Assembly (NCBI RefSeq): GCF_001748085.1
Contig: NZ_BBZK01000003.1
Location: forward strand, 372,001-436,000
Direction of reading: 5' to 3'
Origin: Streptomyces sp. TP-A0874
Lineage (GTDB): Bacteria > Actinomycetota > Actinomycetes > Streptomycetales > Streptomycetaceae
DNA: 64,000 bases
A model generated the notes under the pieces. That model did no database searches, was not told the DNA's origin, and saw nothing but the letters and a program-made list of their open reading frames with translations. The position numbers were made by a program, and so were the translations under genes. Positions 20,607 to 25,084 of the stretch are shown here, in pieces (within the stretch, counting starts at the first letter, position 1; each line of letters starts with the position of its first letter).

Positions 20607-20679
20607 GGGGCTATAGCTCAGTTGGTAGAGCGCCTGCATGGCATGCAGGAGGTCAGGAGTTCAATTCTCCTTAGCTCCA
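20607..20679 (+). tRNA. tRNA-Ala (GGC), copy 1
   Basis: A 73-base cloverleaf. The acceptor arm GGGGCTA/TAGCTCC contains the G3:U70 alanine identity pair. The D arm is GCTC..GAGC. The anticodon stem CCTGC/GCAGG has a loop ATGGCAT giving anticodon GGC, and the T arm includes TTCAATT. CCA is not encoded. It is identical to the copy 1140 bases downstream. Confidence 0.97.
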
Positions 20680-20693
20680 CACGTGATCTGGGA

Positions 20694-21746: not shown

Positions 21747-21819
21747 GGGGCTATAGCTCAGTTGGTAGAGCGCCTGCATGGCATGCAGGAGGTCAGGAGT
21801 TCAATTCTCCTTAGCTCCA
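21747..21819 (+). tRNA. tRNA-Ala (GGC), copy 2
   Basis: Identical over all 73 bases to the copy at 20607-20679, with the same anticodon GGC and the G3:U70 pair. CCA is not encoded. It has its own candidate promoter upstream and hairpin downstream. Confidence 0.97.
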
Positions 21820-21837
21820 CAGATCAGTCGATCCACA

Positions 21838-21869
21838 TGAGCGGGCCGTCCTGGCGGGCGGTCCGCTCA
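21838..21869 (+). terminator. Terminator after second tRNA-Ala
   Basis: TGAGCGGGCC (21838-21847) pairs with GGTCCGCTCA (21860-21869) with one G-U pair and a 12-base loop, 18 bases after the tRNA end. Confidence 0.55.
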
Positions 21870-21987
21870 GGCGTTCCCGGCCTGCCCCTTTCGTGTGTCC
21901 GGCGCCGCAGCGGGGGTCGGCGTCCGTACCCCGCCACGGGACCGTCCCACCGAGGGAAGCTCGATGCGACGCTCCGCGGCGCTGCGG

Positions 21988-21999
21988 TACTCTGACCGT
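21988..21999 (+). promoter_or_regulatory. -10 element of the leuS leader transcript
   Basis: TACTCT at 21988-21993 is followed by six bases and then the ATG of the Leu leader peptide, so the attenuator transcript is probably leaderless. The -35 region is weak. Confidence 0.55.
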
Positions 22000-22038
22000 A
22001 TGCGTGCCGTACGCCTTCTGCTTAGCAGGCCGCGCTGA
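22000..22038 (+). CDS. Leu-rich leader peptide upstream of leuS
   Basis: A 12-residue reading frame, [12 protein letters not shown], with three adjacent leucine codons (CTT CTG CTT). It starts six bases after a -10-like TACTCT. The stop codon overlaps a segment that can pair with 22071-22080. A Leu-rich leader before leucyl-tRNA synthetase is the classic layout for ribosome-mediated attenuation by charged tRNA-Leu level. The peptide itself probably has no other function. The frame is too short for automatic gene callers. Confidence 0.75.
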
Positions 22039-22112
22039 CCAGTCCCGACGGAGACGACTCCAGGTCGGATTCAGCGCGGCGTCCCCTCCTGTCCGAGGGG
22101 ACCTTTCTTTTT
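22029..22112 (+). promoter_or_regulatory. leuS transcription attenuator
   Basis: Downstream of the leader peptide, GCCGCGCTGA (22029-22038, covering the leader stop codon) is perfectly complementary to TCAGCGCGGC (22071-22080). It is followed directly by a terminator hairpin (GTCCCCTC 22081-22088, GAGGGGAC 22095-22102) with a CCTTTCTTTTT tail, the only long U-run I noticed in a terminator here. TCGGA (22065-22069) can instead pair with TCCGA (22092-22096) and would open the terminator. The exact switching partners are inference. Confidence 0.7.
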
Positions 22113-22183
22113 CCGGGGCGAGAATCGCGACACCAGGGGCCTGCTGGCGTGACGGCAGAGACGATCGATGGAGCTTTGAGACG

Positions 22184-25084
22184 ATGAGCGAGAGCAATTC
22201 CGCCGCGGAGGCGGCCGAAGGACAGCGCACCGCGCCGTTCAAGTACACCGCCGCACTGGCCGCTGACATCGAGGCACGCTGGCAGGACTTCTGGGACGTG
22301 GAGGGCACCTACCGGGTGCCGGACCCGGTGCGAGACCCGGCCGTCCGGGCGAAGGGCGCGGACCGCCCGAAGAAGTACGTCATGGACATGTTCCCCTATC
22401 CGTCCGGGGCGGGCCTGCACGTCGGCCACCCCCTGGGGTACATCGCCACCGACGTCTACGCCCGGTTCAACCGGATGACCGGCCACAACGTCCTGCACAC
22501 CCTCGGCTTCGACGCCTTCGGCCTGCCCGCCGAGCAGTACGCGGTGCAGACCGGCACCCACCCCAGGGTGAGTACCGAGGCCAACATCGCCAACATGCGG
22601 GCGCAACTGCGCCGGTTGGGCCTGGGCCACGACACCAGCCGCTCCTTCGCCACCATCGACCCTGACTACTACCACTGGACCCAGTGGATCTTCCTGCAGA
22701 TCTTCAACTCCTGGTACGACGAGGAGGCCGGCCGGGCCAGGCCCATCGCCGAGTTGGCCGAGCAGTTCGCCTCCGGCGTCCGCCCGCTGCCCGACGGGCG
22801 CGCCTGGGCGGAGCTGACCGCCGTCGAGCGGGCCGACCTGCTGGGGGAGTACCGGCTGGCGTACGCCTCCGACGCGCCGGTCAACTGGTGCCCGGGTCTG
22901 GGTACGGTGCTGGCCAACGAGGAGGTCACCGCGGACGGCCGCTCCGAGCGAGGCAACTTCCCGGTATTCAAGGCCAAGCTGCGCCAGTGGAACATGCGGA
23001 TCACCGCCTACGCGGAACGGCTGCTCCGGGATCTGGACGAGCTGGACTGGCCGGAGGCCATCAAGCTCCAGCAGCGCAACTGGATCGGCCGTAGCGAGGG
23101 CGCACGGGTGGAGTTCCCGGTGCGCACCGCCGACGGCGCCGAACGCTCCGTCACGGTGTTCACCACCCGCCAGGACACCCTGTTCGGCGCGACGTACATG
23201 GTGCTCGCCCCCGAGCACGAGCTGATCGAGTCGATCGTCCCGGCCGCCTGGCCCGCGGGGACGCACGAGGTGTGGACCGGGGGCCACGCCACCCCGTCCG
23301 AGGCCGTGGACGCGTACCGCAAGCAGGCGGCGGCCAAGTCCGACGTCGAGCGGCAGGCCGAGGCCAAGGAGAAGACCGGCGTCTTCACCGGCGCCTACGC
23401 CACGAACCCGGTCAGCGGCGCCCGGGTCCCGGTCTTCATCGCCGACTACGTGCTGATGGGTTACGGCACCGGGGCGATCATGGCGGTACCGGCGCACGAC
23501 AGCCGGGACTTCGCCTTCGCCCGCGCCTTCGAGCTGCCGATGCGCTGTGTGGTGGAGCCCACCGACGGGCGCGGCACGGACCCCGGCACCTGGGATGACG
23601 CCTTCGCGGCGCAGGACGGGCGGCTGGTGAACTCCGCGGCGGACGAGGTGTCCCTCGACGGCCTGGACGTGGCCGGGGCCAAGGAGCGGATCACCGGCTG
23701 GCTGACCGAGCGGGGAATCGGCGCGGGCACCGTCAACTACCGGCTGCGGGACTGGCTGTTCAGCCGGCAGCGCTACTGGGGCGAGCCCTTCCCGATCGTC
23801 TACGACGAGGACGGCATCGCCCACGCGCTCCCCGAGTCGATGCTGCCGGTGGAGCTGCCCGAGGTGGACGACTACTCGCCGCGCACCTTCCCGCCGGACG
23901 ACGCGGACACCTCGCCGGAGCCTCCGCTGGCCCGCAACGAGGAGTGGGTCCGGGTCGAGCTGGACCTCGGGGACGGCCGTGGCCGCCGCAGCTTCCGCCG
24001 CGAGACCAACACCATGCCGAACTGGGCCGGCTCCTGCTGGTACGAACTGCGCTACCTGGACCCGGAGAACTCCGAGCGGCTGGTCGACCCGGAGGTCGAG
24101 CGCTACTGGATGGGGCCGCGCGAGGGACAGCCGGCCGGCGGGGTCGACCTGTACGTGGGCGGTGCGGAACACGCCGTACTGCACCTGCTGTACGCCCGCT
24201 TCTGGCACAAGGTCCTCCACGACCTGGGCCACATCTCGTCCTACGAGCCCTTCCACAAGCTGTACAACCAGGGCATGATCCAGGCCTACGTCTACCGGGA
24301 CGAGCGCGGTATGGCCGTCCCGGCGGCCGAGGTGGAGGAGCGGGACGGCAAGTACCTCCACGACGGCGAACCCGTCAGCCGAGTGCTCGGCAAGATGGGT
24401 AAGTCGTTGAAGAACACCGTCACCCCGGACGAGATCTGTGCCGAGTACGGCGCGGACACGCTCCGGCTGTACGAGATGGCGATGGGCCCGCTGGACGTCT
24501 CCCGGCCCTGGGACACCCGGGCGGTCGTCGGTCAGCACCGACTGCTGCAGCGCCTGTGGCGCAACGTCGTCGACGAGCGGACCGGCGAGGTCACGGTGGT
24601 CGACACCGAGCCGGACGAGCCGACGCTCCGCGCCCTGCACCGCGCCATCGACGGCGTCCGGCAGGACATGGCCGAACTCCGCTTCAACACCGCCATCGCC
24701 AAGGTGACCGAGTTCAACAACCACCTGACGAAGGCCGGGAGGCCGGTACCGCGCTCGGTCGCCGAGCCGCTGGTGCTGATGGTCGCCCCGCTGGCCCCGC
24801 ACATCGCCGAGGAGCTGTGGCGCAGGCTGGGCCATGATTCGACCGTGGTACACGCACCGTTCCCGGTGGCCGACCCGGAGTACGCGCGGGAGGAGGCCGT
24901 GACCTGCGTGGTGCAGATCAAGGGCAAGATCAAGGCGCGGTTGGAGGTGGCGCCCTCCATCCCGGCCGCGGAACTGGAGGAGCTGGCGCTCTCGGAGCCC
25001 GCGGTGCGGGAGGCGCTGAACGGCGCGGAGATCCGCAAGGTGATCGTGCGGGAGCCGAAACTGGTGAACATCGTTCCAGCCTGA
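22184..25084 (+). CDS. leuS: Leucyl-tRNA synthetase
   Basis: Charges tRNA-Leu and edits mischarged products. The 966-residue class I synthetase has HVGH (from residue 79) as the HIGH motif and KMGKS (near 737) as the KMSKS motif. The CP1 editing domain lies between, and an anticodon-binding C-terminus follows. Editing-domain landmarks such as [18 protein letters not shown] are clear. The ATG at 22184 gives [19 protein letters not shown] and lies after the attenuator. The frame open from 21893 runs through the leader region and is not the real start. Expression is probably controlled by leucine supply through the leader. Confidence 0.97.

Follow-up and report, generated by a model that had tools for sequence, protein, structure and literature searches.

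What is a short reading frame rich in leucine codons doing in front of leuS in Streptomyces sp. TP-A0874, and does it control transcription of the gene that follows? The window, by which we mean the whole 64,000-nucleotide stretch that was analyzed, belongs to contig 3 of a 5.1-Mb genome (G000). On its plus strand, leuS (22184..25084) encodes a leucyl-tRNA synthetase of 966 aa that matches TIGR00396 (leuS_bact) above the cut-off with an E value of 4e-273. Upstream on the same strand is a -10 hexamer, TACTCT (21988..21993), which ends 6 nt before an ATG at 22000 and suggests a leaderless start. From this ATG runs a leader peptide frame of 12 codons (22000..22038), containing the Leu codons CTT CTG CTT (22015..22023) and closed by a TGA at 22036-22038. 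The end of the frame, including its stop codon, forms the 5' arm (22029..22038) of a 10-bp stem that we call P1. The 3' arm (22071..22080) lies immediately 5' of an intrinsic terminator (22081..22112), another hairpin is nested between the two arms (22042..22070), and P1 is present in the minimum-energy fold. The terminator, recovered by folding, by a terminator scan, and by alignment, pairs 22081-22088 with 22095-22102 and is followed by a U tract at 22103-22112 (CTTTCTTTTT).

The first-pass annotation of this DNA had listed the frame, its Leu codons, the pairing across the stop codon, the terminator, and the hexamer, and all of them are where it had placed them. It had also put the terminator just short of the end of the leuS leader. 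A U-tailed terminator does precede leuS, but its U tract stops 71 bases short of the ATG. The RNA from 22000 to 22115 folds at -56.5 kcal/mol, compared to -39.4 +/- 3.3 for 200 shuffles (z -5.2; none of the 200 equaled it). Within 21800-22300 there are four terminator-like sites when 0.4 would be expected; two represent the leuS terminator and two fall inside the leader frame. A consensus promoter scan returned no sites and no -35 match, so the sequence supports the -10 element alone. No second copy of the leader was found in the window's own genome, where a DNA search and a covariance model each returned one place. Two tRNA-Ala (GGC) genes are found nearby (window 20607-20680 and 21747-21820, with about 1.1 kb between them), the second directly 5' of the leuS leader. 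By eye, tRNA-Ala-like sequence also lies 5' of leuS in some relatives (L030, L048, L051, and L083).

The element is a real, conserved, and already known leuS attenuator. In 2005, classical candidate attenuators, with a leader ORF and with antiterminator and terminator hairpins, were predicted before leuS in both S. coelicolor and S. avermitilis (PMC1262725; this and the other papers cited here are drawn on in excerpt). Those elements resemble ours in the gene, in the Leu-codon leader ORF, and in the U-tract terminator, which makes the window a further copy. The excerpted prediction covers two species only, and our comparison is with the plan it describes, not base by base with its drawn antiterminator. 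RNA sequencing of S. lividans TK24 in 2021 described LeuL2, a leaderless 12-residue peptide with a hairpin and a U stretch between it and leuS (PMC8079986); like the 2005 paper, this study describes the element as an attenuator. LeuL2 shares with the window copy its length of 12 residues, the LLL motif, and the hairpin with its U stretch. The leaderless start seen by RNA-seq in S. lividans would, to judge by sequence, apply to the window copy too, and one residue differs between the two peptides. The first-pass annotation was right in kind when it singled out peptide-based attenuation of an aminoacyl-tRNA synthetase, but this was not news, having been in print since 2005 (PMC1262725). In Firmicutes, most genes for aminoacyl-tRNA synthetases are under T-box control (PMC1262725), yet a search of the 64-kb window against Rfam at gathering thresholds matched two tRNAs only, both tRNA-Ala, and no T-box. 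Furthermore, the part that is conserved consists of a translated frame and hairpins, and we consider a T-box, or any other tRNA- or metabolite-binding riboswitch, highly improbable. The LEU element is a conserved pseudoknot 5' of leuA, whereas the gene in the window is leuS. In the excerpted leader-peptide lists of Corynebacterium transcriptome papers, leuS is not mentioned, and a text search brought up no mention of it in term-seq papers on S. clavuligerus (PMC8269248) and S. griseus (PMC8914203). Nor did excerpts of the open-licence literature yield a published statement of a leuS attenuator distribution as wide as that described below, of the codon rule, of the moving stop codon, or of the covarying stem. 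Two later works (Lyubetsky 2007 and Lopatovskaya 2010) have authors in common with the 2005 attenuator paper and may add species.

Our genus set comprised 80 named Streptomyces loci fetched through the leuS protein and 30 further loci that include the window's own; some contigs were fetched twice, and the 110 loci correspond to 105 distinct sequences. The leader frame was present in all 110 loci, with the commonest peptide in 58 and the second in 34. The Leu triplet reads CTT-CTG-CTT in 97 and CTC-CTG-CTT in 13. A TANNNT hexamer precedes the leader start in every locus, by 6 nt in 107 and by 7 nt in 3, and from this we infer that the leader would be transcribed leaderless in the window organism as well. 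The Leu codons and stems are conserved among relatives instead of being lost, as they would be had the first-pass annotation been mistaken. The arrangement that it described, a probably leaderless Leu-codon peptide and an intrinsic terminator before leuS, is kept in the genus and in the class, and the peptide is leaderless by RNA-seq in S. lividans (excerpts of PMC8079986).

Within the family, a scan with the leader pattern (up to 3 mismatches) found the element in 62 of 150 genomes, including all 38 of the window's own genus. Diverged leaders that had escaped the pattern were found in the leuS upstream regions of 30 genomes, mostly from other genera of the family. Outside the genus, the finder required CCGC[GA]CTGA at the end of the ORF and at least 2 Leu codons, which fixes part of the 5' arm of P1, and it set no condition on CTT or its position. 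Besides L001, a repeat fetch of the window's own place, the finder missed 8 loci. Three of these (L123, L125, and L126) have an earlier TAG, and two (L133 and L134) carry CCGTGCTGA. No leader was seen at L127, L185, and L130, three rows that stand for two genomes, with L185 inspected via L127 from the same genome. By eye, L127 and L130 contain a long-form leuS without a leader and a TANNNT box roughly 7 nt upstream of the probable leuS start, as would befit a leuS that is itself leaderless.

The element extends well beyond the family. A covariance model built from a 103-sequence alignment and applied with a cut-off of E <= 0.001 and strict filters matched 125 of 296 genomes of the class, representing 60 of 114 genera; the other 171 genomes had no match to the model. 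We fetched 60 of the 99 matches outside the genus, and leuS adjoins 55 of these (tblastn, with identity down to 41-42%). Among the remaining five, the contig of L249 ends too soon and L274, L276, L279, and L280 stand before other genes. At L274, the leader VRVITLVLRGRAG lies 5' of a gene for the large subunit of acetolactate synthase (ilvB type; partial and below curated cut-offs), with leader end, stem, and terminator laid out as in the leuS element; ilvB leaders are already in print (excerpts of PMC1262725). At L276 and L279, leaders with Leu and Ile codons (MPSQVLIIVRRAG and VQSALIIT) lie 5' of genes for citramalate synthase (TIGR00977, above cut-off), and a single literature search, judged by title, brought up no published attenuator of that kind. 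At L280, on the minus strand, a weak match to the model (E 1.7e-4) has the leader MRTVLLLLSGRDETSF 5' of leuC (TIGR00170) and is possibly a Leu attenuator on leuCD. Finally, genome G414 has two matches (L226 and L255), both beside leuS-like sequence, which may reflect either two copies of leuS or a foreign contig.

Which parts of the leader are most strongly kept? In all of 146 distinct loci, none of which was found through the leader pattern, the codon five before the stop (22021-22023 in the window) is CTT. The neighboring positions are looser: the codon before it is CTG in 115, CTT in 16, CTC in 14, and GTC in 1, and the codon before that is CTT in 97, CTG in 28, CTC in 17, CGT in 2, CAG in 1, and TTG in 1. 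CTT is otherwise rare: of the 4040 Leu codons in the 5' parts of leuS across the 80 named loci, 2 are CTT, as is 1 of the 190 in a set of five window ORFs. Outside the order, the last Leu codon was CTT in 47 and CTC in 6 of the 53 loci scored, meaning that the rule is strong and not absolute. That count was entered by 55 of the 60 fetched loci (all except L226, L274, L276, L279, and L280), and in L225, L232, and L281 the anchor visibly sits on a codon further upstream. Attenuation theory is in keeping with a rare control codon, and the leader of the Salmonella and E. coli leu operon has one too, although there it is CUA rather than CUU and the target is a biosynthetic operon rather than leuS; in the excerpts of PMC1183508, rarity alone is called an oversimplification. 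The constancy of so rare a codon beside more variable ones argues against another explanation of the locus, in which a constitutive partial terminator reduces leuS expression to a set degree, with an ORF that serves only to protect or couple the RNA and does not sense leucine.

The stems are conserved as well. In the 103-sequence alignment, 99.2% of cells in P1 are paired, with one pair changed on both sides. Where the inner hairpin is present, each of its 6 pairs has changed on both sides; it is absent in genera with a short loop. The terminator core, CCCCUC:GAGGGG, is near-invariant. Across P1, the inner hairpin, and the terminator, 94.3% of cells are paired, compared to 91.1% when shuffled and 39-52% when slid. 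Unguided, RNAalifold recovered 13 pairs, belonging to P1 and the terminator core, without the inner hairpin, at a small covariation energy (-0.54). P1 covaries at the scale of the class, where 48 of 53 loci were retained and a mean of 9.73 of 10 pairs formed, compared to 9.06 when shuffled, with none of 10,000 shuffles as high; the 3' window was chosen for its best pairing within each locus, which favors the native value. Variants of the stem include GCCGCACCGG with CCGGTGCGGC and GCCGCGTCGG with CCGACGCGGC.

While P1 stays in place, the stop codon moves. Among the 47 of 48 class loci that could be placed, the first in-frame stop counted from the anchored Leu codon falls at +6 in 6 (TAG), at +15 in 34 (TGA), and at +18 to +33 in 7. 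P1 begins at +8 in these loci, a spacing that the anchor itself fixes. The shift can be seen within one family, where seven loci encode MRAVTLLL followed by two residues and PR with a TGA at +15, and three others have a TAG at +6 and retain CCGCGCTGA and its partner even though this segment is then noncoding. All nine of the +6 stops are TAG, and the G of that TAG is the first base of P1. At the other end, P1 and the terminator are separated by no base in 22 of the 47 loci and by 1 base in 20. Because the sequence of P1 stays while the stop moves, and because P1 covaries, it seems from these comparisons that selection keeps the stem rather than the end of the peptide or the stop codon. That the arrangement from CTT to P1 is retained as the stop shifts is also difficult to reconcile with a terminator that does not sense leucine.

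The first-pass annotation had further proposed that terminator and antiterminator exchange, and our computed folds did not demonstrate this. In the model, a ribosome occludes 13 nt, counted from the first base of the codon in its A site; 164 of 169 distinct loci were scored. The mean probability of the terminator was 0.98 in free RNA, 1.00 with a stall at the first Leu codon, 0.99 with a stall at the last, and 0.97 with the ribosome at the stop codon; it fell below 0.5 in 1, 0, 1, and 5 loci, respectively. In this scheme, P1 is absent by construction when the ribosome is at the stop, and only its stop-codon end was measured for the last-Leu stall. Equilibrium folding of the 164 loci gave no exclusion of the terminator by an antiterminator in any of the four states, and since the terminator is predicted in nearly all loci in each of them, no exchange follows. 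We also considered early pairing of the terminator's 5' arm, at the stage when the 3' arm is still to be transcribed. The arm is then mostly unpaired, and most paired with the ribosome at the stop rather than at a stall: pairing had mean probabilities of 0.19 (free), 0.03 (first Leu), 0.19 (last Leu), and 0.34 (stop) and exceeded 0.5 in 1, 0, 7, and 25 of the 164 loci in the same order; no consistent early partner appeared among them.

The one candidate antiterminator is weak and does not hold across the class. It pairs the 3' arm of P1 with the terminator loop and contains one C-C mismatch in the window copy. It had 96.4% of cells paired in the 103-sequence alignment, above the 21-75% obtained when slid, but this was no different from shuffles, changes were one-sided only, and a loop swap across the class failed, with the native loop better in 21 of 48 loci. 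An extension of P1 into the terminator was not favored in the class loci (native gain of -0.5 kcal/mol versus -1.0 when swapped). No class-wide antiterminator was found, and an exchange of terminator and antiterminator is not demonstrated by the modeling. A terminator predicted in every ribosome state and the negative searches for an antiterminator speak for a constitutive terminator, as do leader-codon mutations in ilvB of S. coelicolor that left regulation unaffected, as noted in the excerpted PMC1262725. Set against the behavior of the CTT codon and its spacing to P1, we regard a constitutive terminator as improbable.

Taken together, our results suggest that the element is very probably a ribosome-mediated transcription attenuator of leuS. 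As in classical attenuators, its control codons suit the gene that follows, being codons for leucine, which the leuS enzyme attaches to tRNA. We propose that transcription would begin on or beside the A of the ATG at 22000, as the conserved -10 hexamer implies, and that a ribosome would load onto the leaderless RNA. When leucyl-tRNA is ample, the ribosome would pass the Leu codons and depart, and RNA polymerase would halt at 22103-22112. If leucyl-tRNA runs low, translation may instead stall at the Leu codons, chiefly the rare CTT at 22021-22023, and polymerase may then read through into leuS. The stall would be sensed through P1, whose 5' arm begins 8 nt after the start of the CTT. The leading edge of a stalled ribosome lies about 12 nt on, and a ribosome with this CTT in its A site would cover roughly the basal half of the stem. 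P1 would then have the role of the 1:2 hairpin in a trp-type attenuator: the stall would open it, and its freed 3' arm could delay the terminator, perhaps by pairing with the terminator loop. The assignment of P1 as an anti-antiterminator is the weakest step of the proposal, and our confidence in it is evenly divided. Our leaning comes from the position of the invariant CTT: of the Leu codons it is the closest to P1, and a ribosome stalled there would cover the basal half of the stem.

The same attenuator could be wired in reverse, with P1 as an antiterminator that would form upon a Leu stall before the terminator emerges. A ribosome at the stop codon would cover the 5' arm of P1 and lead to termination, and P1 would hinder the terminator by its position rather than through shared bases. 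A parallel is ilvBNC of C. glutamicum, for which a three-hairpin model was put forward in 2025. There, too, a hairpin spans the stretch between the leader frame's end and the terminator's edge, the Leu codon CUU is among the control codons, and transcription begins one base from the leader start. That hairpin was named the antiterminator after mutational work (PMC11857589, in the parts excerpted). In addition, stops at +6 to +33 from the CTT would bring a terminating ribosome over or near the arm of P1, and the near-flush junction of P1 and terminator would suit an effect of position. However, the ilvBNC antiterminator and terminator share a GCC trinucleotide, whereas P1 and the terminator merely abut, and the excerpts of the same study attribute most of the mutant effects to the stability of the terminator. 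With no bases in common, P1 and the terminator are not mutually exclusive on paper; the two coexist in computed folds, and extending P1 into the terminator is unfavorable. Moreover, a ribosome stalled at the invariant CTT, being so near to P1, would hamper the very stem that it is supposed to allow. We regard reversed wiring as possible but less likely, and continue to prefer P1 as an anti-antiterminator.

A broader reading would see in these leaders an old device shared by a large part of the class. In it, a single rare CTT at a fixed distance from a covarying P1 that is flush with the terminator would sense leucyl-tRNA, while the stop codon, the end of the peptide, and the other Leu codons drift. 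Opening or closing of P1 would help or hinder the terminator by position or kinetics, without any exchange of shared bases. We offer this reading tentatively and doubt it more than we trust it.

Our study amounts to the rediscovery of an attenuator that has been in print since 2005, a switch that should raise the level of the leuS enzyme when leucine is short. To this it adds a distribution across much of the class, the near-constant CTT, and the shifting stop codon, which were not found in the excerpts of the literature compared. Conservation is carried by one rare codon and one stem, and the antiterminator is not evident from sequence. Comparison of these leaders could model the way in which leaderless leader peptides govern termination in bacteria of high GC content, and whether rare synonymous codons act as sensors can be tested directly on the leuS leader.
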